Assembly (NCBI GenBank): GCA_020072565.1
Contig: JAIQGI010000068.1
Coordinates: 1 to 37,445, forward strand
Length of the DNA: 37,445 nucleotides
From: Terriglobia bacterium
Lineage (GTDB): Bacteria > Acidobacteriota > UBA6911
Direction: 5' to 3'
Shown here: positions 3,161 through 37,445 of the stretch, piece by piece
Numbering within the stretch: position 1 is the first letter of the stretch
Layout: each line of letters begins with the position of its first letter
Program-made: the position numbers and the translations under genes
Notes under the pieces: model-generated
Database searches by the model: none
The model's input: only the letters and a program-made list of their open reading frames with translations
Told to the model about the DNA's origin: nothing

Positions 3161-3227
3161 CTTAATAGATACCGAGTTAGTGATGTTACTCCAGAACAAG
3201 ATGAAAAGACACTAATTTATGGTGAAG

Positions 3228-3365
3228 GCCGCATACCAGAGGTGTCCCAAAAATGTGCTCATACCAGAGGTGTCCCAAAAATGTGCCGTCCTGAATCTCT
3301 GCTTTGAGTTATGATGGCACCCAGCTAGCAAAAAGGGCCGAATTGGGCCTGGTTTACATATTGCA
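3228..3365 (+). repeat. Repeat A, copy 2 (138 bp)
   Basis: Same sequence as 320-457, with the two 28-bp tandem units at its left end. It is joined one base later to repeat B copy 2. The junction TTGCATGGGAACGG creates an ATG at 3365 that opens a frame into the truncated gene at 3421-3886. Confidence 0.85.
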
Positions 3366-15442: not shown

Positions 15443-15781
15443 TTAATGAGGCGATATTGGGTCAATTGGATCACCCGCGAAACTGTGCCCGCATCGCTTA
15501 GTGCCCACAGCATGAACATCTGAAACGTCATAGCACAGGGTGACCGTCGATGTAAGCTCTTCACCCTGTCGCTGTTTCAGTTCGCCACGACAATCGCAAA
15601 CCGATGAACGACCTGGTTCCGGCCAGCCTGCCTTGAATGCCCCCATGAAAATCTCCTTCGGATGTCCGTCATGATCCCGCTCGCCTTGCCATTTGAATGC
15701 AATCTCGTGGTTCTTGATCAGCTCACGTAATGTTACGGATTCATCTTCCTCGGGCCTCCCATCCGACTTATAATGGCGCAA
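15443..15781 (-). CDS. Doubtful small ORF overlapping a kinase promoter
   Basis: A 112-residue frame with a TTG start and no clear Shine-Dalgarno. The composition is protein-like (ESVTLRELIKNHEIAFKWQG; Cys pairs at CDCRG), but the 5' end overlaps the TATAAT box of the divergent kinase gene. I know no family. It could be a real divergent gene or chance. Confidence 0.25.
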   Translation of the reverse strand: MRHYKSDGRPEEDESVTLRELIKNHEIAFKWQGERDHDGHPKEIFMGAFKAGWPEPGRSSVCDCRGELKQRQGEELTSTVTLCYDVSDVHAVGTKRCGHSFAGDPIDPISPH

Positions 15782-15830
15782 TTCCAGTTGTTGTCATTGC
15801 AGTGGGCGTATCCCCTTCGCGGAGGCTCCC
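15769..15830 (+). promoter_or_regulatory. Kinase promoter and leader (P1)
   Basis: TATAAT at 15769-15774 is followed by a leader ending in CGCGGAGGCTCCC just before the ATG at 15831. The same arrangement, with GCAATTCCAGTT and TTGCAGTGGGCGTAT in common, recurs at 24867-24927. Conservation of the whole 55-base leader at two loci supports a functional promoter. The three P3-P5 leaders share its TATAAT-to-ATG layout. Confidence 0.6.
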
Positions 15831-18494
15831 ATGCCCGAGATCAGCCAGACCATTTCGCACTATACGATTGTTGAGAAGCTCGGCGCCGGGGGAATGGGGG
15901 AAGTCTACAAGGCGCGCGACACGCGGCTGGACCGCACGGTGGCGCTCAAGGTCCTCAAGTCCGCGGCTGCTCCCTCAGCGGATCTGCGGTCGCGTTTCGA
16001 GCGTGAGGCGAAGGCGATCGCCGCGCTCAACCATCCTCACATCTGCACACTCTTCGATGTCGGCCGGGAGGGTGATACTGATTTCCTCGTCATGGAGTAT
16101 TGCGAAGGCGAAACGCTAGCCCAGCGCCTCGCGAAAGGACCGCTGCCGTTGGAACAGGTTTTGCGATACGGCACGGAAATCGCCGGCGCGCTCGACAAGG
16201 CGCACCGGGCGGGCATCGTGCACCGGGATCTGAAGCCGGGTAACATCATGATCACCAAAAGCGGCGTGAAGCTCCTGGATTTCGGCCTGGCCAAGCTGCG
16301 GCAGCCGGCCCCCGCCACAAATGGGCTATTGACCCAGGCGACCGCGCCGGAGCCATTGACGGCAGCGGGAACGATCCTGGGCACGCTCCACTACATGTCG
16401 CCGGAACAGCTGGAAGGCAAAGATACCGACGCACGCGCGGATATCTTCGCTCTCGGCACCGTGCTCTACGAGATGGTGACCGGCAGGAAAGCGTTTGAAG
16501 GCTCGAGTGCGGCGAGCGTGGTCTCAGCAGTGATGAGCGCCGCTCCTAAAGCAATCGCGAGCCTGCAGCCGTTGACTCCGCCCGCGCTCGAGCACATCGT
16601 GACAACCTGCTTGGCCAAAGATCCGGAAGATCGCCGGCAGAGCGCGGCAGATGTTGCACGCGATCTGCGCTGGATTTCAGAGCGGCCGGCAGAGCCGGCG
16701 CCCCAGACCATTCCGATAGCGCCACGCCGCGCCTTCGGCACCATGATCTGGGCAGCTGCTTTTGTGATTGTTGCGTTTTTGGCCGGAGGACTTATTTCCC
16801 GCTTCATATTGAAACCCCCGCTGCCACCGATGGAGCCGCAACATTTCACGATGAAACTTCCAGCTGATGCCCCCCTGGCCCGGCCCGAGGATCTTCCCGG
16901 CGGATTGGATATACCCTCGCTGGCGATTTCTTCCGATGGCAGGCGCTTTGCCTATGTGGCGGTCAATGACGGAGATCGACGGCTCTATGTCAGGCAAATC
17001 GACGAGGCCCATTTCCGGCAATTGAAGGGAACTGAGGGTGCAACCAATCCATTCTTCAAGCCTGATGGGGAATGGCTGGGATTTCACAGCTCAGGCAAAC
17101 TCAAAAAAGTGGCATTCAGCGGGAGCTCCTTGTCGGATATATGCGATACCACGGCTGGTTTCCTTGGAGCAAGCTGGAATCGTGATGGATCGATTATCTT
17201 CTGCACTGAAAACGGCCGTCTCTTCCAGGTGCGTGAGGGGGAAGACCCGATACGCCTTTTCGACCCCAAATTGCCGAATGATGCGATCAGCTTTCCCCGC
17301 ACGCAGACGGACGCCAAAACAGTACTTGCAGCGGGTCGTTATTCTTTCGGCTCCAAACTTCTCGACACGGCCTCCGGGGTTGTGCAGACCATCTTTGGCG
17401 CCGGGAGCAGTCCATCAATAACACCAAGCGGCCACTTGCTGGCTGCCGGACAAGGAGTTCTTCTCGCCGCACCGTTTGATGCCAAAAACAGCCGATCCGG
17501 TGACCATAGGACAGTGCTGGATGATTTAAGAACCACGTCTCTCTGGGGAGCGCAATATGCACTCTCTGACACCGGGACGCTGCTCTATGCGCCCGGAGGC
17601 GCGGCGGACGAAGGCAAACTGGTGAAAGTGGATCGAGATGGAAACGTGCAGGACCTTGGCGTGCGGCCCGGAGTTTTTCAACATGTCTCAATGGATCGAG
17701 ACGGAAATCGTGTCGCGGTCTCAATGCAAGAGGGTGGGAAAATGCATGTGTTCGTTATCCACCTGCAGCGGCCTGATCTGTTGAATCCGCTCACCTCGGA
17801 TGGAACGATCAATGCCGGCCCTATTTGGAGCCCACAAGGCGACAAAATTGTTTTTTATTCCGATCGTGAGTCAGCGTCGAGCCTGTGGGTTCAGGCGGCA
17901 GACGGCGGCGCTGGGGCAGATCGGATTCTGGAAGTGGGTCGGTGGTGTTTGCCATCGTACTGGTCTCGCGATGGGTCCCTTATCTTCGGTGGATACGGTA
18001 TCAAGTCCAATTGGATTCTTAATAGCCTGGCAATGGGCAGCAAATCACAATCCCATGTCCTGTGGGATGACGGAAGCTTTGTGTTTTGGGGCTTTTTATC
18101 CCCCAATATGCGGTGGTTGCTGTACACAGTCGACAAATCGGGAATCAGTCAAATATTCATCAGGCCCTGGCCAAACATGTCATCGCCGGGGATTCAGATT
18201 TCGACGCAGGGGGGATCGGATCCTCTGTGGAGCATTGATGGGAGGGAGGTTTTTTATCGCAACAGAGACCAGCATATGAGGGTGACATTGCCCGATTCAT
18301 TGGATTCCTGGTTTCCCCAACCCGTACCGATGTTCAAGAAGAACTATCTGAATGTTATTGGCAAGCCATGGGACGTCATGGACAAGCAGCACTTCATCAT
18401 GATCCAGCCGACCCATCCTGATCCGCCGAAAACCGAACTGTATCTCATCCAGAATTGGTTCGAGGAACTCAAGCGCCTGGTGCCAATCAAGTAG
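15831..18494 (+). CDS. Receptor-type Ser/Thr kinase with TolB-like propeller (first of three)
   Basis: 887 residues; GGAGG lies shortly before the ATG. The kinase domain has the glycine loop GAGGMGEV (18-25), Lys40, alphaC Glu59, HRDLKPGN with Asp133, DFG at 150-152, and SPEQ. One membrane helix follows (IWAAAFVIVAFLAGGLISRF, about 303-322). The outer region has repeated blades (ISSDGRRFAYVA, SPQGDKIVFYSD, SRDGSLIFGG) like TolB or DPP-type propellers. The opening MPEISQTISHY is the sequence found as isolated fragments elsewhere in the window. It begins a same-strand run of three kinase genes. Confidence 0.92.
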   Translation: MPEISQTISHYTIVEKLGAGGMGEVYKARDTRLDRTVALKVLKSAAAPSADLRSRFEREAKAIAALNHPHICTLFDVGREGDTDFLVMEYCEGETLAQRLAKGPLPLEQVLRYGTEIAGALDKAHRAGIVHRDLKPGNIMITKSGVKLLDFGLAKLRQPAPATNGLLTQATAPEPLTAAGTILGTLHYMSPEQLEGKDTDARADIFALGTVLYEMVTGRKAFEGSSAASVVSAVMSAAPKAIASLQPLTPPALEHIVTTCLAKDPEDRRQSAADVARDLRWISERPAEPAPQTIPIAPRRAFGTMIWAAAFVIVAFLAGGLISRFILKPPLPPMEPQHFTMKLPADAPLARPEDLPGGLDIPSLAISSDGRRFAYVAVNDGDRRLYVRQIDEAHFRQLKGTEGATNPFFKPDGEWLGFHSSGKLKKVAFSGSSLSDICDTTAGFLGASWNRDGSIIFCTENGRLFQVREGEDPIRLFDPKLPNDAISFPRTQTDAKTVLAAGRYSFGSKLLDTASGVVQTIFGAGSSPSITPSGHLLAAGQGVLLAAPFDAKNSRSGDHRTVLDDLRTTSLWGAQYALSDTGTLLYAPGGAADEGKLVKVDRDGNVQDLGVRPGVFQHVSMDRDGNRVAVSMQEGGKMHVFVIHLQRPDLLNPLTSDGTINAGPIWSPQGDKIVFYSDRESASSLWVQAADGGAGADRILEVGRWCLPSYWSRDGSLIFGGYGIKSNWILNSLAMGSKSQSHVLWDDGSFVFWGFLSPNMRWLLYTVDKSGISQIFIRPWPNMSSPGIQISTQGGSDPLWSIDGREVFYRNRDQHMRVTLPDSLDSWFPQPVPMFKKNYLNVIGKPWDVMDKQHFIMIQPTHPDPPKTELYLIQNWFEELKRLVPIK

Positions 18495-18520
18495 CCTGAC
18501 AGAGCACGCCGGAGGGTAAC

Positions 18521-21232
18521 ATGCCCGAGATCGGCCACACTATTTCGCATTACCGGATCATCGAAAAGCTGGGGCAAGGAGGTATGGGCGAGGTCTTCCT
18601 GGCTCACGACACCGACCTTGATCGAAAGGTCGCGCTCAAGTTCTTACCCGATATTTTCTCCGGCGATCCCGAGAGGCTGGCGCGCTTCGAGCGCGAGGCC
18701 AAGCTGCTGGCATCGCTGAATCATCCGAATATCGCCACGATCTACGGCCTGGAGCTGGCGGACGGAAAGCGCTTCCTTGCCATGGAGCTTGTGGAAGGAG
18801 AAACGCTGGCGGAACGCATCGGCAAGGGCCCGCTGCCGGTGGAGGAAACTATTGCAGTCTGCCGGCAGATTGCCGAGGGCTTGGAAGCCGCCCATGAAAG
18901 AGGCGTCATCCACCGCGACCTGAAGCCGGCCAATGTCAAGATCACTCCGGAAGGAAAAGCAAAGATCCTGGACTTCGGCCTGGCCAAGGCGTTTCAGGGC
19001 GAGCCGTCCGCAGCGGACGCATCCAAATCGCCCACGCTCACGGATCAGATGACGCGCCCAGGTGTGATTCTGGGAACCGCAGCCTATATGGCGCCAGAGC
19101 AGGCCAAGGGAAAAGCAGTGGACAAGCGCGCGGACATCTGGGCCTTTGGCTGTGTGCTGTATGAGTGCCTGACCGGAAAGAAGGCGTTTCAGGGTGACAC
19201 AATCACCGAGACGGTGGCTGCGATTCTGAAGAGCGAACCGGACTGGACACTGATCCTTGCCGAGACTTCTTTTTCGGTTCGGGCTGTCCTGAGGCGATGT
19301 CTGCAGAAAGATCCGAGCCTGCGTCTCAGAGACATTGGTGATGCGCGAATGGAGATGCAGGATGTCGCACCCGGAGGTTCCGAAATCCACTCAGTGGTTG
19401 CCTCTACTCCTGGACGCTGGCGGTTGTTCCCCTGGATTGTCACTTTTTTGGCGTTGTTCGTTGCGTTCGCATTCGCGATTAGGAGCGTAAGACAGCCTGA
19501 GAGAATAGCATTCCCGGTCAGACGCTTTGTCATTTCCCTGCCGGAACCGCTTACTGACCACTGGAGACCCAATTTGGCTCTGTCTCCGGATGGCACACAG
19601 CTCGCCTATGGCGCCGGCTTCGGCCGTGTAAACGCACATCTCTATCATCGGAGTCTCAATGAGTTGGAGTTCAAGCCCATTTCGGGTACCGAGGGAGGGC
19701 ATAGCCCTTTCTTTTCTCTCGATGGAAAATGGATAGGATTTTTCACCGAAGGCCGGTTGAAGAAAGTGCCGGTTGCTGGCGGACCGGTGGTGAATCTCGC
19801 GGAGATTGGCGACTCATATCCCTCGGGCGGAATCTATGAAAAAGATGAATCCATCCTATTTCAGCTCGGGTGGAGTGCCGGTATCGCACGAATAAGTGCA
19901 TTGGCCACAGGGACAATGCCGCAGACTCTGTTTACGCCCGACCGTAAACAGAACGAGCGCGGTCTGCTCTGGCCGCAACGTCTGCCCGGAGATGACCTGG
20001 TCTTATTCACTTCCTACGCAGGCAACAGTGCTTCGAAGAATGACGCGCGAGTGGTTATCGGCCATCTCGACGATCAGTCCAAAAGGACGGTGCTTGCGGG
20101 CGGCACCTATGCTCGCTACCTACCCACTGGACACCTCCTCTATGGCTATGACGGCAAATTGATGGCGGCGCCGTTGGACTTGGCAAATCCGAAGAGAGCA
20201 GAAAATGCTGTACCCGTCTTAGAGGGGATCTTGATGAACACAGCCTCGGGTACTCCACAATTCACCGTCTCCGACACGGGAGACCTTGTTTATATCCCGG
20301 GAAGCACAAATATTGAGCGGGACAGTTTTGTGTTGGTCGATCGAAATGCGACGCGAGAGGCAATCGACCCTCCCGGTAACAAGAATGAAAGCCGATTCAT
20401 GTCATGCCCCAACATCTCGCCAGACGGATTGCGCATTGCCGTTCATATGCCTAAATCGAATGACGACATTCATATCTATGACTTTTCCCGTGGATCCCTG
20501 ACCCGTGCCACTTTTGAGGACGGAGATGAGATGGCCCCCGTCTGGACTCCTGACAGCACCAAGATAGCCTATACATCGGATTCCGGACCCATTCCCCAGA
20601 TGTTCCTCAAAAGCATCAACGGCAGCAGCCCACCGGAGCCAATTTTTGAAGGAAAATATCCTCGCTATCCCTGCTCATTTTCTCCCGACGGGAAGATGCT
20701 TGCCTTTGAGGAGAATCATCCGAAGACGGGGTGGGATATCTGGGCCGGCATCACCGGCGGCAAAGAGGATCCAAGGCCGTTTCTGCGGACGGAGCATTCA
20801 GAATCATCTCCGGCATTCTCTCCTGACGGTCAGTGGATGGCCTATCAATCTGACAAATCCGGACAGATGCAGGTTTACGTGACGAGCTTTCCGGACCGAA
20901 GAGACGAAAAACAAATCTCGCTGGATGGTGGAACAGAGCCAAGGTGGAACCCAATCGGCAACGAACTCTTCTATCTCAACGATAATCGGTTTATGGCTGT
21001 GGCGATTTCCTTCAAGCCCATTTTCCGGGCCGCTAAGCCCACGGTCCTGTTTACGACCGACGAGAACTTTTGGCGCAGGGATGTACTCTTGCTGACCAGC
21101 TATTCGGTCATGCCCGATGGGCAGAAGTTCGTGTTCATCAAACAGACCCAGGTGAATCCTGCCAACCAATGCATCTTCATCCAAAATTGGTTCGAGGAAC
21201 TTAAGAGCAAAGTCCCCGCCGGAAGGAAATAG
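18521..21232 (+). CDS. Receptor-type Ser/Thr kinase with TolB-like propeller (second of three)
   Basis: 903 residues, 26 bases after the previous stop, with GGAGGG before the ATG. Motifs: GQGGMGEV (18-25), Lys40, Glu59, HRDLKPAN with Asp133, DFG about 151-153, APEQ. The membrane helix is near residues 306-325 (WIVTFLALFVAFAFAIRSV). Propeller repeats include LSPDGTQLAYG, WTPDSTKIAYTSD, FSPDGKMLAFEE and FSPDGQWMAYQSD. The ending IFIQNWFEELK is shared with the first kinase, so the two are recent paralogues. Its first 50 codons match the kinase fragment at 24928. Confidence 0.92.
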   Translation: MPEIGHTISHYRIIEKLGQGGMGEVFLAHDTDLDRKVALKFLPDIFSGDPERLARFEREAKLLASLNHPNIATIYGLELADGKRFLAMELVEGETLAERIGKGPLPVEETIAVCRQIAEGLEAAHERGVIHRDLKPANVKITPEGKAKILDFGLAKAFQGEPSAADASKSPTLTDQMTRPGVILGTAAYMAPEQAKGKAVDKRADIWAFGCVLYECLTGKKAFQGDTITETVAAILKSEPDWTLILAETSFSVRAVLRRCLQKDPSLRLRDIGDARMEMQDVAPGGSEIHSVVASTPGRWRLFPWIVTFLALFVAFAFAIRSVRQPERIAFPVRRFVISLPEPLTDHWRPNLALSPDGTQLAYGAGFGRVNAHLYHRSLNELEFKPISGTEGGHSPFFSLDGKWIGFFTEGRLKKVPVAGGPVVNLAEIGDSYPSGGIYEKDESILFQLGWSAGIARISALATGTMPQTLFTPDRKQNERGLLWPQRLPGDDLVLFTSYAGNSASKNDARVVIGHLDDQSKRTVLAGGTYARYLPTGHLLYGYDGKLMAAPLDLANPKRAENAVPVLEGILMNTASGTPQFTVSDTGDLVYIPGSTNIERDSFVLVDRNATREAIDPPGNKNESRFMSCPNISPDGLRIAVHMPKSNDDIHIYDFSRGSLTRATFEDGDEMAPVWTPDSTKIAYTSDSGPIPQMFLKSINGSSPPEPIFEGKYPRYPCSFSPDGKMLAFEENHPKTGWDIWAGITGGKEDPRPFLRTEHSESSPAFSPDGQWMAYQSDKSGQMQVYVTSFPDRRDEKQISLDGGTEPRWNPIGNELFYLNDNRFMAVAISFKPIFRAAKPTVLFTTDENFWRRDVLLLTSYSVMPDGQKFVFIKQTQVNPANQCIFIQNWFEELKSKVPAGRK

Positions 21233-21264
21233 ATGCGCTCGAATCGCCAAAGAGGTGGATTCTC

Positions 21265-23883
21265 ATGATCGGAAAAACGCTCGGCCATTATCGGATCGTC
21301 GAGAAGATCGGCGCGGGAGGCATGGGAGAAGTGTACCGAGCCAGCGACGCACGACTCGATCGGGACGTCGCCATCAAGGTGCTGCCTTCTCATCTGGCCG
21401 AGGATGCGGCGGCACTGGCGCGCTTCGAGCGCGAGGGCAAAGCAATCGCCGCGCTATCGCACCCCAACATCCTGGGCATTTTCGATGTCGGCAGCGAAGG
21501 CGGGATTGCATACGCAGTCACGGAGCTGCTCGAAGGGGAGACGCTAAGGGCGCGTTTGGCGGACGGGGCGCTGCCGGTGCGCAAGGCCGTCGATTATGCG
21601 GCGCAGATTGCCCAAGGACTGGCGGCTGCGCACGACAAAGGGATCACTCACCGCGACCTGAAGCCCGAGAACGTGTTTGTGACTGCCGATGAGCGGGTCA
21701 AGATCCTCGACTTCGGGCTCGCAAAGCAGGCGCTGCCCGCGGCTGCCGACAATGCCGCGGATTCCCCCACCATGGGAACGCTGACGAATCCAGGGATTGT
21801 AATGGGCACGGTTGCCTATATGGCTCCGGAGCAGGCGCGCGGCCAGGCGGTGGATCACCGGGCCGACCTTTTCTCTTTCGGTGCGGTGCTCTATGAGATG
21901 CTGACCGGCCGGCCGGCGTTCCGGCGCGACACCGCGACCGATACCATGGTGGCCATTCTGAAGGAGGATCCGTCGGAACTGGCGACTCTCGACCCGAAGA
22001 TCCCCCCGGCACTCGCGCGCCTGGTCCAGCACTGCCTGGAAAAGAATCCGGCAACGCGCTATCAGTCGGCGCGCGACATCGCGTTTGCGCTGGAATCGTT
22101 GTCAGGCTCGGGCGCGGCAACGGCGACTGCGACCGCTCAGAGACAAGCGCGGCCGTGGGCCGTGCGGTGGGGGCTGGCGGCGGCTGCCGGTCTTTTGCTC
22201 GTATGGCTAGGTTTCGCCGCACGGGGCTACTGGACATCACGTCCGTCCGGCCTGCCGGTCGCATGGGAGGGCGAGCTGCTCAGCGGCCCGACAGCCGGGT
22301 TGAACCTCCGCGTGTCGCCAAATGGTCAGGAGGTAGCGTTTGCGGCACTCAGCGGCAAACAGACTCAGGTTGCTCTAATGAAGCTCGCGTCGGGCGACTG
22401 GAGATTTCTCACGAGTGACACTGCGCGCGGCAATGTCCAGGAATTCGCATGGTCGCCGGACAGCGCGCGATTGTACTTCGATCGCTACAATGCCGGTCAG
22501 GCGAGCATCTTCTCGATGTCCCCGCTGGGCGGACAGGAAACGCTGTATGTTCAGGATGCGTTCTCTCCACGTTCCCTTCCCGACGGAAGCCTACTGGTGG
22601 GGGGCTGGAACGACAGTGGGCAACAGCAAATCTATCAGTCTTGGCCTGAAGGAGATCGAAGCAAACCGCTCGATGCGTTCGGAGCGGCGGGCGGCGGGGG
22701 GATCGCGTTCCGCACAATTCCTAATCGCAAGGCAGCCGTGTTTTTCGGAAAGCCGAAGGGTGATTCGTCGGCACCGAACCAGCTGCACGTCATCGATCTT
22801 GAATCTGGCGCCAGCCGCGCGCTCGCACCAGGCGTCGCGATCCCACCGCGGCCATGGTTGTTTCCGCTCGCGGTTTCGCCCGACGGTGCCTGGGTCCTCT
22901 TCGACCTGCCCGCCGGCGATCTGCACCAAATCGTGGCTGTGCGCTCCGATGGTTCCCCAGGAGTACACTCCCTCCTCACGCTCACGGGTGAACCGCTCGG
23001 GCTCGACGTCGGATCTGACTGGAGCTTGTTCGTCGAGCAAATCCACCAGCCGACGGAGATCCGGTGGTACTCACAAGCAGGCGCACCGGCGGCGAGCCAG
23101 CGGATTCCCGACTCGGCCCATTACTATCCTGTGCTGCCCATCGATCGTGAGCGGGTCCTCGTAACGGTGCGGTCGGCCGGAAAGACACGCGTCATGGTAG
23201 TAGCGCAGGGCAAGGCCCCGGCCCCGTTTGTCGACACTGAGGATGACGCGAAATTCGTCGCCACACTCGGTCCGGACCGGATCATCCTGATCCTTGAATC
23301 CGGCGCCAGGAGTCGCGTTGCCATCGCTGCGATGGCGACCGGCCGGATTATCATACCGGACATCGGCATCGACGCCGCTAAAGTGGAGTCGCTGGCAGGA
23401 TCGCCGGACGGCACGACGGTGTTTTATGCGGCTGACAATGTTGTATGGAAGAAAAACACCAACGGTGGTCAGGCTCAACAAGTCCGGCCTGGTAACAGCG
23501 TTGCCGTGGATCCTGGTGGTGAATACCTGATCGTAAAGCTGCGAGAACGGAGGAGTACCCTCCTGTTCCGCGTGCCGCTGCCTGTGGGAGCTGGCAAGGA
23601 CCAGGAGATTCGCATTGATGGAAGCGACTTACGACTCGTCGAGGATTGGCAATCGCCGAAGGCCATCGGCGCCCTCGGCCGTTTGCTGGTGCGCGTCGCT
23701 TCGCCGGCCAGCTGGTACTACCCGGCCGCTGTCCTCGATCCGCAAACCGGACGCCTGGAACCGGTCGACCGGGCGTTTGATCGCGACATGGTCGGCGCGG
23801 CCTGGAGCGACGATGGCCGGATCGTAACGCAGGCCACGAGCTTCGAGTCGACCCTGTGGCGATTCCGGCCGCGGTGGAAATAG
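21265..23883 (+). CDS. Receptor-type Ser/Thr kinase with propeller (third of three)
   Basis: 872 residues, 32 bases after the second kinase. Motifs: GAGGMGEV (16-23), Lys38, HRDLKPEN with catalytic Asp near 131, DFG, and APEQ. A membrane helix (WGLAAAAGLLLVWLGFAARGY) follows near residue 305. The outer part has weaker blades (SPNGQEVAFAA, SPDSARLYFDR, SPDGAWVLFDL). Its N-terminus (MIGKTLGHYRIVEKIG) and kinase domain are nearer to the minus-strand kinase at 11222 than to its two neighbours, so the run was assembled from different lineages rather than by simple tandem duplication. Confidence 0.92.
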   Translation: MIGKTLGHYRIVEKIGAGGMGEVYRASDARLDRDVAIKVLPSHLAEDAAALARFEREGKAIAALSHPNILGIFDVGSEGGIAYAVTELLEGETLRARLADGALPVRKAVDYAAQIAQGLAAAHDKGITHRDLKPENVFVTADERVKILDFGLAKQALPAAADNAADSPTMGTLTNPGIVMGTVAYMAPEQARGQAVDHRADLFSFGAVLYEMLTGRPAFRRDTATDTMVAILKEDPSELATLDPKIPPALARLVQHCLEKNPATRYQSARDIAFALESLSGSGAATATATAQRQARPWAVRWGLAAAAGLLLVWLGFAARGYWTSRPSGLPVAWEGELLSGPTAGLNLRVSPNGQEVAFAALSGKQTQVALMKLASGDWRFLTSDTARGNVQEFAWSPDSARLYFDRYNAGQASIFSMSPLGGQETLYVQDAFSPRSLPDGSLLVGGWNDSGQQQIYQSWPEGDRSKPLDAFGAAGGGGIAFRTIPNRKAAVFFGKPKGDSSAPNQLHVIDLESGASRALAPGVAIPPRPWLFPLAVSPDGAWVLFDLPAGDLHQIVAVRSDGSPGVHSLLTLTGEPLGLDVGSDWSLFVEQIHQPTEIRWYSQAGAPAASQRIPDSAHYYPVLPIDRERVLVTVRSAGKTRVMVVAQGKAPAPFVDTEDDAKFVATLGPDRIILILESGARSRVAIAAMATGRIIIPDIGIDAAKVESLAGSPDGTTVFYAADNVVWKKNTNGGQAQQVRPGNSVAVDPGGEYLIVKLRERRSTLLFRVPLPVGAGKDQEIRIDGSDLRLVEDWQSPKAIGALGRLLVRVASPASWYYPAAVLDPQTGRLEPVDRAFDRDMVGAAWSDDGRIVTQATSFESTLWRFRPRWK

Positions 23884-24801: not shown

Positions 24802-24866
24802 GGAACAGGGTAAGATTGGCCGCGATTAGTGATTGCCGTGAATTGTCTCGAACGGAGCCGTCAGGA

Positions 24867-24927
24867 TATAATGAGGCAATTCCAGTTAAATTGTTGCAGT
24901 GGGCGTATCGCCTTTGCGGAGGCTCGC
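24867..24927 (+). promoter_or_regulatory. Kinase-type promoter and leader (P2)
   Basis: TATAAT at 24867-24872 and a 55-base leader with GCGGAGG before an ATG at 24928, closely similar to the leader of the kinase at 15831. It now drives a truncated kinase frame and then the SnoaL-like gene at 25140. Confidence 0.6.
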
Positions 24928-25143
24928 ATGCCCGAGATCGGCCAGGCCATTTCGCACCACCGGATCATCGAAAAGCTGGGGCAAGGAGGAATGGGCGAGG
25001 TCTTCCTGGCTCACGACACCTCCCTTGATCGCAAGGTCGCCCTCAAGTTCCTGCCCGATATTTTCTCCGGCGATCCCGGTCGTGTGATCTCACCAGCAGG
25101 AAAAAGCATTTGCCTATTATTAAACCACAGGAGAATCCTATGA
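24928..25143 (+). pseudogene. Kinase 5' fragment, translationally coupled to the next gene
   Basis: The frame encodes [11 protein letters not shown], the glycine loop GQGGMGEV and [15 protein letters not shown], matching the first 50 codons of the kinase at 18521. Similarity ends near 25079, just after the ATP-binding Lys. The frame then continues for about 20 unrelated codons and stops in ATGA, where the ATG is the start of the lipoprotein gene at 25140. With no catalytic residues it cannot be a kinase; it may serve as a leader peptide that couples translation into the next gene. Confidence 0.75.
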
Positions 25144-25979
25144 AACGGTACGTCCAGATTGCTGTTGTCGCGTCGTTGGTGGGCCTGATCGGTTGCCAGC
25201 AGACCGCCCCGAAGTTGTCCGAGGCAGATATCGCGGCGGTCAAGGCAAACCTCATCGATTGGGGCGCGGCGATTTCGTCGAAACACTACGACGCCCTCCC
25301 TGGACTCCTAGCCGCCGATTACTGGACGTTCCGGGACGATCAGCCGGACATAACCTCACGGGAGGCTGTGGTCGCATGGGCGAAGACGTGGGGGCCGGAC
25401 ATGCACCAGAGCTGGGTCGTCGACGAGGTCAACGGCTACGCCGACTTGGCCTTCTCCCGCGCGACGGTGTCGGAATCCGTCGCGCGACCAGACGGTACCC
25501 GGGAGTCCTCGCAGGCCGTGTGCTTCTGCACCCACCGCCGACAGCCGGACGGGACGTGGCGGATCAGCCGCGCCATCTGCCGCGATCGGAAGCCGCAGCC
25601 GGTTCAGGCGACGCATGTGTTCGACAACTGGGTGAAGTTGCTCGAGGCCGGCGATGTGAAGGGTGCGATGGATCTGTTCGCGGAGGACGTGGTCTAGTCG
25701 AGCCCGGAGAAGGACGACGCACTTGTCAATGGGAATGAGGCACTCAAACGCCGCATTGCGAGGACCTTCGCGTGGGCCAAGGCTTCCAACGCCGTGCTCA
25801 CGGTCGACCGAGAAGAAGTCGTGGGCAACTGGGCCTACGTGACCGCCTCCTTCTCGGCCACGTGGACCGAGCCGAATGGCAAGCAGTCCGAGGAGCGCAG
25901 CCGGTATGTCTGCGTCCTCAAGCGCGCCGCCGGCGGCCCGTGGAAGATCTGGCGCTTCACCTTCTTCCCGGAAGCGTGA
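25140..25979 (+). pseudogene. Two-domain SnoaL/DUF4440-like lipoprotein with an in-frame amber codon
   Basis: ATG 25140 follows CAGGAGAAT. The product has a lipobox ending LIGC (Cys19), then a SnoaL-like domain to about residue 155. A linker leads to a second similar domain, but a TAG at 25695-25697 (codon 186, in LFAEDVV-stop-SSPEKDD) cuts it. The same frame continues open for 93 codons to a TGA at 25977 with clear coding character (KQSEERSRYVCVLKR, WKIWRFTFFPEA). Read through, it gives about 279 residues, matching the 282-residue lipoprotein at 32035. TGG to TAG is the simplest explanation; a shorter functional protein or amber readthrough are alternatives. Confidence 0.8.
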
Positions 25980-26943: not shown

Positions 26944-27085
26944 CACCGACTGGCGAGCAGCATACCGGCAGGAAAAGCGGCGCCCCGGATACGTTATCGA
27001 AAACGGAAAATCCATCATCAAAGTCCGGCCAGATACCTTGCGCCGCCGATGGCGAATCTCGCTCCCTCAGGAAAAGAGAAAAACT
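26940..27085 (+). pseudogene. Short coding remnant cut by repeat A
   Basis: An ATG at 26939/26940 overlapping the previous stop opens a frame reading MTTDWRAAYRQEKRRPGYVI and on to a basic stretch (DTLRRRWRISLPQEKRK). It then runs into repeat A copy 3 at 27086 and the rest is lost. The overlap suggests a former two-gene operon. Confidence 0.35.
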
Positions 27086-27223
27086 GCCGCATACCAGAGG
27101 TGTCCCAAAAATGTGCTCATACCAGAGGTGTCCCAAAAATGTGCCGTCCTGAATCTCTGCTTTGAGTTATGATGGCACCCAGCTAGCAAAAAGGGCCGAA
27201 TTGGGCCTGGTTTACATATTGCA
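27086..27223 (+). repeat. Repeat A, copy 3 (138 bp)
   Basis: Matches copies 1 and 2 over its full length and has the same orientation. It is followed directly by TTCCTATGTGC (27224-27234), the last 11 bases of repeat B, as if the rest of B had been deleted. Confidence 0.85.
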
Positions 27224-28062: not shown

Positions 28063-28959
28063 ATGGATCCCATCCGAGGCCCAGGGAAACTCATGAAAAA
28101 AACCCTCAATGATCACGTCAACACGGCTATGATATTACTCAAACAGGGGCTTCGGCCTTATGTCGAGCAGACCTTCACGAAACGCTTTGGAAATAGCTGG
28201 CTGCAAGAGGCTGCGGAGGGCGTCCGCAACCGGGACACGGCTGATAGGATCAATCGCGGCCAGCTTGATGCCGCCGCGCTACTTGAGATCATGTGGAACC
28301 ATTGGCATGACCTTTTCAGCAACACGCTCACTCAGAACGAACGTACATTGGTGAGCGAGCTGTGGGGTAAGCGCCATAGCTTGGCGCACCAGGAGGAGTT
28401 CAGTTGGGATAATGCATACCGCACGCTGGACAGTATTGAACTCCTTCTCAGGGCGGTTGCCGCCGAGGAGGCGGATAGCGTAAAGATGCAGAAGGATGAA
28501 CTCCGCCGCATGATGGTTGAGGACGAAAGCCACCAACTGCCGTCCGAGGTTGCCATTTCAGTAGCCCCCCAGGGAGAACCCTATGAGCTGAAGCAGGGCA
28601 AGAAATGGGAAGCATGGACCCTCTCCAAGGGATATAAATTTACATGCGAAGGAGAGGTCTCAGAGGGTGTAAGCGTTGAGATGGGAAAGGGAACGAAAGC
28701 CACTTTCAGTGCAAGCCTTTTTGAGGCAATGCTGAATGAGTTTTCTGGCAAGACAATCGTAGGTGGATTTTCGATGACGGATCCGCCGACAGGAGGTCTG
28801 GGCTGGTGGGTTCAAAACAATTCCGGTAAGTATGGGAACAAGCTAACGCCGAGACATGCATCTTTTATCGCGGCGATACTCGTTGCCAAGGGTTATTGCA
28901 CCTCACGACAAAGTCATGGCATTCTCTTGACATTCCCGAAAATTGACAAACACCCCTAA
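28063..28959 (+). CDS. Swt1-type HEPN domain protein
   Basis: 298 residues from ATG 28063; an inner ATG at 28093 after CAGGGAAA is equally possible. Residues about 15-140 fit the Swt1-family HEPN domain: LRPYVEQTF at the start, LQEAAEGVRN, MWNHWHDLF, ERTLVSELWGKRHSLAHQEEF, then AYRTLDSIELLLRAV. The catalytic HEPN RNase motif R-H-x3-H is present as RHSLAH (Arg104, His109). HEPN proteins of this kind are metal-independent RNases in toxin, restriction and abortive-infection settings. Residues 170-298 are a separate domain I do not know (WEAWTLSKGYKF, GGLGWWVQNNSG). There is no partner gene on the same strand, so it may act alone. Confidence 0.7.
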   Translation: MDPIRGPGKLMKKTLNDHVNTAMILLKQGLRPYVEQTFTKRFGNSWLQEAAEGVRNRDTADRINRGQLDAAALLEIMWNHWHDLFSNTLTQNERTLVSELWGKRHSLAHQEEFSWDNAYRTLDSIELLLRAVAAEEADSVKMQKDELRRMMVEDESHQLPSEVAISVAPQGEPYELKQGKKWEAWTLSKGYKFTCEGEVSEGVSVEMGKGTKATFSASLFEAMLNEFSGKTIVGGFSMTDPPTGGLGWWVQNNSGKYGNKLTPRHASFIAAILVAKGYCTSRQSHGILLTFPKIDKHP

Positions 28960-30666: not shown

Positions 30667-30966
30667 CTACCTGTTGATTGAAGCGTTCACTCTGTCTTGT
30701 GCCTCCTTGCGAGCCAGGCGGGTCTCCTTCCACGCGATGATCGCAACCAACAGGACCCCGACGACCAGGCCCCAGCCCAGGCCATTGGTCAACCCGAGGC
30801 CGATTCCCAGTTCCTGCGGGTTAAAATTAGCCGGGTCGCGGAGGGGCAACATCTGGCGGAAGAAGCCCGGTGCGACCTTCCCGAGCAACACTCCGATTAC
30901 AGTTCCAGCGGCCCCGAAGCCTAAAGCCGGCCCCACGACAGTTGCGATTGCCTTCGTTACGTTCAT
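30667..30966 (-). CDS. Small two-helix membrane protein
   Basis: ATG 30966 is chosen for its GGAGGAG five bases upstream; the longer frame from 30996 lies in the kinase leader. The 99-residue product has two hydrophobic segments (ATVVGPALGFGAAGTVIGVLL and GLGWGLVVGVLLVAIIAW), a Pro/Asn-rich loop between them and a charged C-terminal tail (KETRLARKEAQDR). Function unknown. It is the first gene downstream of the kinase promoter block P3, about 145 bases from its TATAAT box. Confidence 0.68.
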   Translation of the reverse strand: MNVTKAIATVVGPALGFGAAGTVIGVLLGKVAPGFFRQMLPLRDPANFNPQELGIGLGLTNGLGWGLVVGVLLVAIIAWKETRLARKEAQDRVNASINR

Positions 30967-31063
30967 CTTCTCCTCCGAGTCTCGGACAGAAGACACCTAT
31001 CCGGGTGCCACCCAGTTTCTCAACAATTCGGTAGTGTGAAATGGTCTGGCCGATCTCGGGCAT
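30967..31063 (-). pseudogene. Kinase start fragment
   Basis: From ATG 31063 the frame reads MPEIGQTISHYRIVEKLGG and then leaves the kinase pattern near 31009. This is the first strand of a receptor kinase, matching those at 15831 and 18521. The frame continues in a different phase through the start of the small membrane protein gene and ends at 30827. It can only be a leader peptide. Confidence 0.65.
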
Positions 31064-31160
31064 GCGGGCCTCCGGTTCGGCAAGTCAGGTGAGATGCTTT
31101 GTGGTGGCGACATTATACGGGGAAGCGGCTTTTTCAGGAAAGGAAAAGGGTTGCCGCCCC
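31043..31160 (-). repeat. Kinase promoter/leader block P3
   Basis: Minus-strand block with GAAAAAGCCGCTTCC, TATAAT (ATTATA at 31112-31117 on plus), a 50-base leader with CCGGAGGCCCGC, and ATGCCCGAGATCGGCCAGAC. It is nearly superimposable on 32930-33045 and 34121-34240. It lies just upstream of the small membrane protein gene. Confidence 0.8.
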
Positions 31161-31354
31161 ATTGCGAAGGCAGCGGAAGGAACGGATCAGGGCACGCAAC
31201 ACGACAGCTCATTGGTCCGTGTCTTCCGCTGAGGCTGGGATCGGGAATAAACAGCAAGAGCCGCCCCGAGGAGTGGCCCTTGGATGCCTCGATGCTGCGG
31301 GATGATCTTAGACAAGGTCGACCCTCCGCCTTTATCTCACCCGTCAGTTATGAG

Positions 31355-31906
31355 CTACTTCTTCGGAGCGGGCTTGGCCTTGGTGGCTTTGACTGTGAAG
31401 GCCGTCCACCAAGTGCCGTCCTGTTCTTTTTCTGATTTTCCCGAGACAGACACTCGATCAGGGCTAACACTCCACGTATTCCGCCATCTGGTCGTTTTCC
31501 CGTCCCGGCTCGTGTCAATGCCGTTTTCAATGGAGACTCCATCCTTGAAGGTCGCTGTCATGATCCAAGTCGTGCCATCATCGCTGAAACCGTAGGAGGT
31601 GTGGACTTTCTTAGCAGGATCGTAGGAGAGAATTTCCAGACTACGCGATTCCGCGCCCTTGCCTTTCCATGTATGAAGAATCTCAACGAAAAAGCCGTTC
31701 AAGATCCAACGGCCCTGCATCCTCCAGTCGAGTTGGTACTCGGGTTCCTCCCGAGTGTCCTTCGCTGTCCCCACCAGCGTCCAATCTCCTACCCAGAGAT
31801 CCCACTCCTTAAGTTCCGGTCTTGGCTTGGGGGCTGGGGTTTGTGCCTGGGCGGCAACCGCAAAAAGCAATAGTATCAAGCCGACTGCAACAACAGTTCG
31901 TTTCAT
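31355..31906 (-). CDS. DUF1579-like exported protein
   Basis: From ATG 31906 (GGAG eight bases upstream) the 183-residue product has a signal peptide (RTVVAVGLILLLFAVAAQAQ). The mature part, with WDLWVGDWTLVGTAKDT, YQLDWRMQGRWILNGFF and ILSYDPAKKVHTSYGFSDDG, is the pattern of the DUF1579 family of small beta-barrel proteins, common in Acidobacteriota and Planctomycetes. Biochemical role unknown; the fold suggests lipid or small-molecule binding. It ends with Lys/Ala/Pro residues. It lies 128 bases after the lipoprotein gene on the same strand and may be cotranscribed with it. Confidence 0.8.
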   Translation of the reverse strand: MKRTVVAVGLILLLFAVAAQAQTPAPKPRPELKEWDLWVGDWTLVGTAKDTREEPEYQLDWRMQGRWILNGFFVEILHTWKGKGAESRSLEILSYDPAKKVHTSYGFSDDGTTWIMTATFKDGVSIENGIDTSRDGKTTRWRNTWSVSPDRVSVSGKSEKEQDGTWWTAFTVKATKAKPAPKK

Positions 31907-32034
31907 GGATTTCTCCTTCAAGGGTGCGAGAATGTAATGGAAGCCTGCGGAACATTCATGCACCACAGGTGGCTTGGAATGGCCTTCTCATCGACAGCCG
32001 ACCCCACCGATAATCCCCAGGCCCCAACATGAAG

Positions 32035-32883
32035 CTACTGCACCTTGGTCGAGTAGCCGGTCACGCACTGCCACCGGCCTTCGCGTTTCACGAACACATC
32101 GGTGAAACGATATTGACCGCTTGTGTCCTTGCCTGCTATCGAACTCTTCTCGGTCGACAGGCCAAGCACAATAGCCGTGTCACCAAAAACGAGAGCCTTC
32201 ATATCGCTAACCACCATCGACTCGGTCTTGGACGTATCGCTCTTCAGAGCGGAGAGCAACTGTTTCTTGTTGCCGACGAAGGTGGCGTAGTTTGCCTGGA
32301 ACTCGTTAGCCAGCATCCTTTCGAGCGCCGCCGTATCCTTCTTGAGACTGGCAGCGGCCCAATCCCTTTCGAGTTGAAAGAGGGCTTTCTCATCCTCGCC
32401 GCTCGCGGTGCTGCCTGGCAGAGGCTTATTGCTGTTGGCAACCAGCCAGTCCCATTTCCAGGATGCGTCACCCTGACGAGCGAAAACCACCATCCAACTC
32501 CCTCCGTCACTAAAGCCCGTCTCGCCTTGCGCCTTTGGTGTGGCCTTCATCGTCCAAGTCCCTCTTGCTACAGCAACCTCACCTGTAACACGCACATCCT
32601 CAACCGGCCCGCTGAACTCAATGCTGAACTGGCCGAAAAAAGGTTGCCATTGTGACCGGATTGCTTCCGCACCGACCATGACAGGGACATTCGCGTCCGC
32701 CCACACGGTCTTGTCCGTCATCAACGCGGCAACAGCACCAGCATCCCCGGCATTGAGAGCCTTCTCGAAATCACCCATTGACTTCTTGATCGCCTGCACA
32801 TCAGCAGGGTCATTGACTTTCTGGGCACAGGCGGAAAACAGCAAGAGCAAAACACACAGTATTACAGCGAATGTGGTCTTCAT
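32035..32883 (-). CDS. Two-domain SnoaL/DUF4440-like lipoprotein
   Basis: 282 residues with a lipobox ending FSAC (Cys19). Residues about 25-145 form one DUF4440-like domain (AIKKSMGDFEKALNAGDAGAVAALM, VGAEAIRSQWQPFF, GTWTMKATPK, GSWMVVFARQGDASWKWDW) and about 160-282 a second (LFQLERDWAAASLKKDTAALERML, YRFTDVFVKREGRWQCV). Tandem NTF2-like domains anchored to a membrane suggest binding of a small ligand. It is the intact counterpart of the broken gene at 25140. GGAG lies eight bases before ATG. Its start is nested within the frame opened by kinase leader P4. Confidence 0.85.
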   Translation of the reverse strand: MKTTFAVILCVLLLLFSACAQKVNDPADVQAIKKSMGDFEKALNAGDAGAVAALMTDKTVWADANVPVMVGAEAIRSQWQPFFGQFSIEFSGPVEDVRVTGEVAVARGTWTMKATPKAQGETGFSDGGSWMVVFARQGDASWKWDWLVANSNKPLPGSTASGEDEKALFQLERDWAAASLKKDTAALERMLANEFQANYATFVGNKKQLLSALKSDTSKTESMVVSDMKALVFGDTAIVLGLSTEKSSIAGKDTSGQYRFTDVFVKREGRWQCVTGYSTKVQ

Positions 32884-32929
32884 GGCTGCGACTCCAATTG
32901 AAATATTGGTTGGGATTGCTCAGCTGCGC

Positions 32930-33045
32930 GGTCTGGCCGATCTCGGGCATACAGCCCTCTGATACCGCACGTCAGGGTGTAAAGCTTTGTGGTGAGGCCA
33001 TTATACGTGGAAACAGTCTTTACAAGTAAGGAAAAGCGTCGTCCC
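32930..33045 (-). repeat. Kinase promoter/leader block P4
   Basis: Same block as P3 and P5. TATAAT lies at 33000-33005 (as ATTATA on plus) and the kinase ATG at 32950. The frame reads MPEIGQT and then diverges to AQLSNPNQYF, continues across the lipoprotein ATG in another phase and stops at 32810. So a leader peptide of 46 codons overlaps the start of the lipoprotein gene. Confidence 0.8.
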
Positions 33046-33437
33046 AAATGCCGCTGAGCGGGTTGTGAACCCAGCCCAATTCTGTCGGAATCCTCTGTAA
33101 TTGCTGCGGCATGCCAGTCTAGGGCCTATGAAGAGAAAGCTCCACCGATAATCTCAGTGGCCCGAAATTGAGAATGCCGGGGCGGTCGCCCTATCCCCCG
33201 ACGCTCACAGAACGATCTGGCCCCGGACCACTAAGTCGGCCCTCGGCGAATGTTTTACTCCCGATGAAATTCATGTTTGTTTCCTGTTATCACGGAGATG
33301 GTATCTGCTCTGAGCTAACGGTCCAACGGTTAGACAGGCTTCCTTGATTTTGTGCCTCGGAAGCAAGCCGAAAGGGCCAAGGCTCCGAGAGCAAGGGCAG
33401 TCGCCTTTTTTGGCGGGCACCCATAGGAGATGCCTCC
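33046..33437. other. Non-coding stretch between P4 and a membrane-protein gene
   Basis: 33070-33120 shares CGGAATCC, GCGGCATGCC and GTC-AGG with 34275-34335, so it belongs to the R material. GTCCAACGGTTAGAC occurs at 33321-33335, close to the palindrome at 29419. No gene is supported here. Confidence 0.4.
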
Positions 33438-33881
33438 CTAGCGAATGGCCCTTTTTCGCAGTACCTCTTCAATCTTAGGAGGTAGGTTCAACGGTTCTTG
33501 GCTAAGGAGCCTTGGTTGCTTCAGTTGCAATTGACTCAGGGTTTGCCCGGGAATACTCTTAATCAGCGATTGGTTGACTTCTCGCTGTCGGTTAAGAGCA
33601 GAATAAAGGCCAGCGGCAGCGTCAGTCATTTCACTTTTTTCGGCTTCCGTCTTGGCCACGGTCTGCGTCAATTGACCTACTTGGCCGATACTTTGGCTCC
33701 ACCCCCTTCCCGAAAAAATGAGCACCAGACCAACGATGAGGAAGATAGCAGGAGCACCAACTCCAGACATTTCGAAAAACGGGAGCTTAATTGTGAATTG
33801 ACCGCTCGAAAATTTCTTGAATAAGGCGATTATCGAGACGATCACGAGTGCGAACCCAAGGCAAAACATTGCTATTTGCAT
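33438..33881 (-). CDS. Small membrane protein with coiled C-terminal tail
   Basis: ATG 33881 follows GGGAGGATCT; a longer frame upstream is not needed. The 147-residue product has two membrane segments (IAMFCLGFALVIVSIIALF and GAPAIFLIVGLVLIFSG), then a helical, Gln/Glu-rich stretch (VGQLTQTVAKTEAEKSEM) and a Pro/Leu-rich basic tail ending in KRAIR. No known family. It is downstream of kinase leader P5 on the same strand, 260 bases from its ATG. Confidence 0.65.
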   Translation of the reverse strand: MQIAMFCLGFALVIVSIIALFKKFSSGQFTIKLPFFEMSGVGAPAIFLIVGLVLIFSGRGWSQSIGQVGQLTQTVAKTEAEKSEMTDAAAGLYSALNRQREVNQSLIKSIPGQTLSQLQLKQPRLLSQEPLNLPPKIEEVLRKRAIR

Positions 33882-34120
33882 AGATCCTCCCTCTTCTCTT
33901 GATGGTTCTAGTGAGAAAAGACACTGTCCCAGTACCACAATGGTAAACGGCTGATAAAGCGAGAGCCCCTACCGCCTGTATGACGAAAGCTATGAGAACA
34001 TTTCAGGAGAGCACAAACGACGATCGGCAAGTGAGCCTGAGCGTGACAAGAAGCAGATCTGCGGCACGGCCTATAATTTCGATTCAGGGTTGAAAGAGGA
34101 GGATAATCAAGCGGATGGAA

Positions 34121-34240
34121 ACCCTGGCCGATCTTGGGCATGCGGGCCTCCGGTTCGGCACATAAGGGTGAGATGCTATGTGGTGGGGCCATTATAAGCG
34201 GAAGCAGCTTTTTCAAGCAAAGGAAAGCGTTGCCGCAAGG
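34121..34240 (-). repeat. Kinase promoter/leader block P5
   Basis: Third close copy of the P3/P4 block. TATAAT lies at 34191-34196 (ATTATA on plus), CCGGAGG before the kinase-type ATG at 34141, and the frame reads MPKIGQG before diverging. That frame, longest from 34216, stops at 33908, just before the membrane-protein gene at 33881. Confidence 0.8.
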
Positions 34241-34443
34241 ATGGGCGTGACGCTCATGGGCTCCGCAGCACTATCAGGTTGCCCGCCACTGGGTCTTCGG
34301 AATCCCTGCGATTTCGGCGCATGCCGGTCCAGGCCGCGCCAACCTATAACCGTTGGATGCGGCTGGCAGGTACGATCCAATGGAAGCTGGTTGGAAATCT
34401 CGGGTGAGCACGACATGGCTCACCATGCGAAACCGAAAAAATC

Positions 34444-35643
34444 TTGGTTTTGACCTTTCAAGGGGCAGCCTACCTGTATGACGCCAACGGGCGCCGGTTC
34501 CGCACAAATGATGGATCTGTGCTAAACTACGTTTATTCCTATACGGGCCAATTGCTGATGGAAGACAGGATAACGGAGTCGACCTGGAACAATTACATCT
34601 ATTTCAATGGCCAGATGGTGGCGATTCATCAGCAGGACGACCACTTCCGGCTGCTGTTCAAGGATCACCTGGGGAACACGAGGTCGGTTTTGAAGGTGCA
34701 TCTGCCTGAATCGAACTGGCAGTACAACTGGACGCTGGTTGAGACGGCGGACTTTTTGCCCTATGGTATGCAATATCGGGGCTATACATTCGATACGCCA
34801 CCGACGGGCTATATGTATGAAGGCAAGAGCAGAGATGGCGGCCTGGACTACTTTGGTGCCAGGTACTACGACGGCAGCTCGCTTGACACTTCCTCTACGC
34901 GCTGGATCTCCCCGGACCAGCTCACGGCGCGCATCTACGATCCGCCATCGCTGAACAAGTATACTTACGTCACAAACGACCCGGTGAATATGGTAGATCC
35001 GGATGGAAGGAGCTGGCTTAGCGCCATTGTGAGTTTCCTCGGAAAGATCGTCGATGCCATCGTATCGGCCGTTGATTTTTATATAGATTCATGGCGCGAG
35101 CTTGCCACAGCACCTCCACTTATGGGGGGAGATATTTGGGATCGCGGGAGAGGCGGTCCAAGTGATGAGGATTATGGTCATGGCGGTGCCAACCAGGGCT
35201 TCGTTGCCATCTTTGAACTTCCAGCTGAAAATATCAAATACATGGACGACATCGACGCCTCCTGTGGACCAGTACTAACAGCAGGTGGCTGTGAAAGAGT
35301 CGATTATAGGCCGGACTTCGTTTGCGTGCAAAATAGCGCTTCAATGTGGACAGCCAACTATACTATCAGTCTTACTGGAAATATTTATGTGGCTAAGGGC
35401 CCATTCCCGTACAAAGGAAGAGATCCCCAAGACCATAGCATAACGGACACGGCGAGTGCCTTACGGCATGAGCAGAGACACGTCGATGATCTTGTCAATG
35501 CACTCCGCAACCTGTTCCAAGGATTCGCAAAATTTGTTTCTGGTTCAGAAGAGGATTGTAAAGAAACAGCTGGGGAAGCGGAGAAACGTGCTATCACGGT
35601 AGCGGACCAGGCGAGAAGAGATAGCGCACAGCGGCGAGGGTGA
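34444..35643 (+). CDS. Orphan Rhs C-terminal tip with HExxH domain (candidate toxin)
   Basis: The 399-residue frame (TTG start, no clear Shine-Dalgarno) contains the end of an Rhs/YD shell: YDANGRRFR, YVYSYTGQLLMED, LFKDHLGNTRSVL, then the core signature GLDYFGARYYDGSS, RWISPDQL, SLNKYTYVTNDPVNMVDPDG (ending at residue 188). The long N-terminal repeat region is missing. Residues 190-399 are the variable tip. It has Cys274, 283, 294 and 372 and a zinc-protease-like motif HEQRH at 342-346 (RHEQRHVDDLVNAL), with Glu369/370/374/378 as possible third ligands. Such tips are usually toxins delivered to rival cells. An LRR protein gene overlaps its stop. Confidence 0.75.
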   Translation: MVLTFQGAAYLYDANGRRFRTNDGSVLNYVYSYTGQLLMEDRITESTWNNYIYFNGQMVAIHQQDDHFRLLFKDHLGNTRSVLKVHLPESNWQYNWTLVETADFLPYGMQYRGYTFDTPPTGYMYEGKSRDGGLDYFGARYYDGSSLDTSSTRWISPDQLTARIYDPPSLNKYTYVTNDPVNMVDPDGRSWLSAIVSFLGKIVDAIVSAVDFYIDSWRELATAPPLMGGDIWDRGRGGPSDEDYGHGGANQGFVAIFELPAENIKYMDDIDASCGPVLTAGGCERVDYRPDFVCVQNSASMWTANYTISLTGNIYVAKGPFPYKGRDPQDHSITDTASALRHEQRHVDDLVNALRNLFQGFAKFVSGSEEDCKETAGEAEKRAITVADQARRDSAQRRG

Positions 35644-37306: not shown

Positions 37307-37445
37307 CATGCGCATCCTTGCAGCGATCAATCCGCCCGAAGCCATCCATAGGATTCTTGATTGCCTGGGCCTGCCGACGAGACCCCCGCCAATTGCAGCA
37401 GCATCGACCGCCGCCCCCTACTTCTCCTGATCCGGAGGCTGCTAA
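37307..37445 (+). repeat. IS91 tail repeat, copy 2 (139 bp, runs to window end)
   Basis: Matches 1789-1927 and encodes the same transposase C-terminus (MRILAAINPPEAIHRILDCL and the Pro-rich end APYFS). The CPRCGG part present in copy 1 is missing here. The window stops inside or at the edge of the repeat, which may reflect an assembly break at a repeated element. Confidence 0.85.

Follow-up and report, generated by a model that had tools for sequence, protein, structure and literature searches.

Control regions of lost receptor kinase genes appear to be used by other genes in a Terriglobia bacterium

The window analysed here, 37,445 nucleotides in length, is the whole of contig C68 of the 7.46-Mb draft genome of a Terriglobia bacterium (C-numbers denote contigs of this same genome). 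It carries a tandem array of three intact receptor kinase genes on the forward strand (15831-23883; Pfam Pkinase), at 15831-18494, 18521-21232 and 21265-23883. The first of these matches Pkinase at 1.4e-50, and beta-propeller repeats are present in two of the three. A kinase 5' module of the type termed class B below precedes an intact kinase at 15750-15848 (+; profile R3, 92.9 bits) and serves as the reference for the donor state. A further match, at 1972-2172, represents a different type of kinase and was left out of the analysis. Elsewhere in the window, in a variable region, a gene at 28063-28959 (+) encodes a protein with a Swt1-like HEPN domain (Pfam 1.2e-29) that may act in defence or RNA processing. 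Non-coding copies of a 144-nt sequence lie at 314-457, 3222-3365 and 27080-27223; they are 97-99% alike, have an internal ATACCAGAGGTGTCCCAAAAATGTGC repeat and different flanks, and look like a small dispersed repeat. An identical stretch of 139 nt occurs at 1789-1927 and at 37307-37445, where it ends the contig. Its encoded tail (CPRCGGRMRILAAI..) resembles an IS91-type transposase by eye, no family model matched this tail, and the contig end probably falls within a repeat.

Three repeat blocks on the reverse strand had been reported in a preliminary description of the window and were confirmed at 31046-31148 (block 1, ATG at 31063), 32933-33036 (block 2, ATG at 32950) and 34124-34227 (block 3, ATG at 34141). 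They score 97.9, 85.9 and 96.9 bits respectively against a profile of the class A kinase 5' module, although these scores are not independent since the profile was built partly from blocks 1-3. In ungapped comparison with the class A consensus block 3 matches at 69/73 positions and block 2 at 62/73; a 1-nt gap lowers block 1 to 48/73, yet this block has the top profile score. The matches are far above those of shuffled windows, the best of 20 shuffles of the whole window reaching 39/73. Each block consists of a TATAAT box, a leader of about 48 nt, a ribosome-binding site and the start ATGCCCGAGATCGGCCAG, which in block 3 reads ATGCCCAAGATC (MPKIGQ). The motifs given in the preliminary description as common to all three stand for blocks 1 and 3, to which GAAAAAG..GCTTCC and CCGGAGG are confined, but not for block 2, which has GTAAAGACTGTTTCC and TCAGAGG. 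Divergence from the kinases after 7-19 codons, as described previously, applies to block 2 with its 7 codons, but block 3 has 6 and the similarity of block 1 continues for about 24 codons, to near position 30992 (tblastn 71-82% identity, best E 2.6e-10; matches over 24-38 codons). Neither a kinase nor a kinase 3' remnant was detected by tblastn downstream of blocks 1-3. Coding pieces that are Rhs-like by motifs seen by eye (33960-35643, +) flank block 3 on both sides, so that block 3 may sit within a broken Rhs-type gene; 34444-35643 (+) matched no Pfam family.

From the block ATG to the start of the next gene there are 97 nt (block 1), 67 nt (block 2) and 260 nt (block 3), and the genes reached are unrelated to one another, as had been noted before. 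Behind block 1 lies an orphan 99-aa putative membrane protein (30667-30966, -; an open frame with GGAGGAG before its ATG) that matched no Pfam family and no homologue among 40 relatives. Block 2 is followed by a two-domain SnoaL/DUF4440 lipoprotein (32035-32883, -; Pfam DUF4440 3.4e-28, SnoaL_2 6.8e-14) and, as the second gene of the operon, a DUF1579-like secreted protein (31355-31906, -; Pfam DUF1579 1.1e-6). Both have paralogues on C6 in the same gene order, with 52% identity for the lipoprotein (C6:80497-81342) and 41% for the DUF1579 protein. The gene behind block 3 encodes a second orphan, a 147-aa putative membrane protein (33438-33881, -) for which no Pfam or NCBIfam family and no homologue in the 40 relatives or in viral contigs was found. 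With no homologue of either orphan gene among the 40 relatives, no pre-deletion orthologous locus was recovered for block 1 or block 3. For the SnoaL gene, the matching contig of a genome of the same family (G002) begins within the gene and does not include the upstream region, and a 42%-identical homologue in a Vicinamibacterales genome is without the module.

Module classes were read from the 5' regions of 51 long matches to Pkinase. Class A, to which blocks 1-3 belong, has a CACCACA leader and encodes MPEIGQ; class B has a CAATTCCAGTTG..TTGCAGTG leader and again MPEIGQ; and class D has a CAAATTCAGGT..TTGCAGTG leader followed by MIGK. All three have a TATAAT box, a GGAG-like motif and a distance of roughly 50-60 nt between the box and the start codon, and in classes B and D conservation extends upstream to a GATTCAGCT element. 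Full-length receptor kinases follow a class A block twice on C25 and once on C45, and two more do so in the sister species G001, which bears out the earlier view that the blocks are receptor-kinase 5' regions. The genome search that had been suggested, listing the gene behind every copy, was carried out with profiles and inspection and gave about 30 kinase 5' modules in three related classes, of which approximately one third have no intact kinase behind them. In a sister-genus genome (G007) the kinases have a leader class of their own, TATAATAAGCCC..TGTAAC.GACCTCT, and conserved kinase 5' modules therefore reach beyond one genus. Large paralogue families that include Ser/Thr kinases, generally below 50% amino-acid identity, are described for Solibacter usitatus and other Acidobacteria in the portion of the source drawn on here (PMC3174227). 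The many kinase paralogues of the present genome resemble those families; unlike that portion of the account, the present one describes conserved 5' modules and their reuse.

Non-kinase carriers number about 10 genes, nearly all on the same strand as the module and starting no more than 260 nt from it. One of these is in the window, where a fourth module, of class B, had been overlooked (24864-24945, +; profile R3, 63.5 bits; ATG at 24928). It leads into a truncated kinase stub of 50-70 codons, to 25143 (tblastn 73% to kinase residues 1-71), and then a SnoaL-like lipoprotein at 25140-25694 (+; Pfam SnoaL_2 1.2e-6). Within 25140-25949 a TGA at 25695 splits two SnoaL-like domains, the second being in frame to about 25949 (Pfam SnoaL_3 0.0036, under its cut-off); either a nonsense mutation of recent date or a mistake in the assembly would account for it. 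On other contigs a class A module precedes the SnoaL and DUF1579 operon of C6 and a class B module precedes a MotA/ExbB-like gene on C28, with the kinase start fused to it in frame (MLEIGQ). Class D modules are found before a protein without a Pfam family on C95, an amidohydrolase on C124 and, as a leader lacking the kinase start, a DUF3795 protein on C5; a weak one before a SnoaL gene on C31 (17.6 bits, E 0.02) is a probable case only. Four other matches (C56:4750, C64:1072, C77:18137 and C93:487) were excluded as too weak or incomplete. Intermediates of decay are also present: a kinase with an internal deletion and early stop (C25:68913), a stub of 74 codons after which no gene begins nearby (C39), a class D module whose stub, some 80 codons long, is frameshifted and gives way to an unrelated gene (C86), and, in the sister species, another frameshifted stub, of about 40 codons, ahead of a SnoaL gene (G001 C615). 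Altogether the stubs span roughly 6 to 84 codons, some with frameshifts or stops. On C6 a kinase fragment adjoins the DUF1579 gene downstream and is followed by an IS91 transposase fragment (NCBIfam 1e-12), and so kinase remnants lie on both sides of the non-kinase genes at this locus.

Block 2 and its counterpart on C6 have the same junction and SnoaL 5' region as well as a CAGAGGG variant private to the two of them, and they most likely descend from a single fusion. Between the two loci the module is identical at 71/96 ungapped positions (74%), against 42/107 pooled fourfold sites (39%). This difference (p = 7e-7) is not what unconstrained evolution of a kinase remnant would give, and it supports the view that the block at the SnoaL pair has long been under constraint at the nucleotide level. 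Among intact class A kinases, taking all pairs, the leader is identical at 428/587 positions and fourfold sites at 338/831, a contrast for which the p-value is only indicative as the pairs are not independent. The excess over fourfold sites suggests that the entire leader, and not the boxes alone, is constrained. When modules were compared at the conserved columns, non-kinase and stub modules matched at 0.86-0.97 and intact kinases at 0.85-0.94. The values of 0.97 for block 1 and 0.95 for block 3 fit with function, although these are single cases with genes lacking known homologues, and their conservation could instead reflect a recent origin. There was no Rfam match in the window, and the leader showed no covariation and no pair with double-sided change that would indicate a structured RNA.

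It had also been proposed that the kinase start codons were kept as leader peptides. In favour of this the start-codon region is conserved at 17/18 positions between the block 2 and C6 SnoaL loci, and on C6 the stop codon of the stub and the SnoaL start codon overlap (ATGA). Translational coupling is nevertheless unsupported, as 7/9 stub frames reach a point 30 nt or less from the next start, or run past it, before any stop, against 8/18 control frames (p = 0.11).

Overall, other genes appear to be using control regions that remained when kinase genes were lost. We think it probable, with reservations, that the blocks are the 5' ends of receptor Ser/Thr kinase genes whose bodies have been lost and whose module now serves another gene. 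Kinase copies would be lost through internal deletion and rearrangement, a surviving promoter-proximal part upstream of a gene on the same strand could drive that gene, and the module might then be retained by selection. On this reading the TATAAT box would mark the transcription start site and the module would set the expression of the new gene. If the blocks were instead role-free leftovers of deleted kinases, with the genes behind them using other promoters, common kinase decay of the kind seen in this genome, stubs with frameshifts or stops, and a stub such as that on C39 with no nearby gene start would all be expected. Against such scars stand the conservation of the module far above fourfold sites at the anciently diverged SnoaL loci, the observation that non-kinase modules are no more decayed than kinase modules, and the intact same-strand gene close behind most modules, and we regard this alternative as unlikely. 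It is the conservation far past neutral expectation, found in one case, that argues for reuse of abandoned kinase control regions.

The preliminary description held that the block had been copied as a unit, and one-ended transposition of IS91-like elements could be imagined to duplicate such a 5' cassette. The modules are indeed many and dispersed, an IS91 transposase fragment lies beside the C6 kinase fragment, and inspection shows IS91-like tail sequences both at 1789-1927 and where the contig ends. However, the right boundary varies from zero to more than 80 kinase codons, no terminal repeats were seen, no IS end was found at the window blocks and C6 retains its downstream kinase fragment, so that copying seems rather improbable. 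Decay by internal deletion and the C6 kinase fragment fit deletion or rearrangement at least as well, and the varied right boundaries together with the lack of visible terminal repeats favour it. The similarity of the modules might otherwise be ascribed to gene conversion among kinase copies, for which one genome with many homologous copies would provide the opportunity. Such concerted evolution is very improbable, given uniform identities (about 0.61-0.87) with near-identical tracts absent, a leader identity of 0.72 in a kinase pair that is 84% identical, which is no higher than in pairs of about 50%, and the private variants common to block 2 and C6. By analogy with the kinase decay visible here, the likeliest origin of the junctions of reused kinase modules is thus deletion or rearrangement, rather than copying, that would have placed a gene under a kinase promoter.

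For a single gene, the MotA-like gene of C28, the state before fusion can be seen. Its orthologues in the relatives G012 and G013 (53-54% identity) have a native ribosome-binding region and no module, and the module of the present genome joins precisely at that region. At least one module was therefore gained in this lineage by a pre-existing gene that was formerly without it.

SnoaL-like genes recur among the fusions, being present in three independent fusions here (one of them, C31, weak) and in one in G001. As habitual neighbours of intact kinases they find no support, none being detected directly behind 39 of these (0/39) with a home-made profile, for which most of the positive controls were also among the training sequences. 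The contrast of 3/10 independent fusions with 0/39 kinase neighbours gives a hand-calculated p of about 0.007, in which the genomic SnoaL background is not included, and enrichment of SnoaL among the fusions is best taken as a lead. A speculative extension, of which we are doubtful, is that the kinase 5' module is a portable control unit behind a kinase-linked regulon into which SnoaL-like proteins have been recruited repeatedly.

Putative mobile promoters and promoter reuse in prokaryotes have reportedly been described by Matus-Garcia in 2012, Nijveen in 2012 and van Passel in 2014, all three cited in the reference list of PMC9208149. The present modules are like mobile promoters in that homologous promoter sequence stands before unrelated, non-homologous genes of one genome. 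They differ in that the donor family is known, the module continues past the leader into the coding region and one of the fusions is both old and under constraint. Fusions in which a deletion links the beginning of one gene with a second gene have also been described (PMC12803068); the same joining is seen here, but it is mostly the control region that is reused, with in-frame extension of the protein only at C28. Homologous promoters before unrelated genes and deletion-made fusions (PMC12803068) are thus already known, and what this genome adds is a donor family that can be named, a series of decaying copies and a fusion that is both ancient and constrained. In practice, gene-finding programs may be led to annotate false kinase starts or overextended gene starts, of which C28 is an example. 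The genome offers a traceable case of bacterial regulatory rewiring, with donor, junctions, decay intermediates, a lineage-specific gain and an ancient fusion all in one place, and it suggests that dead kinase genes are not necessarily silent debris.
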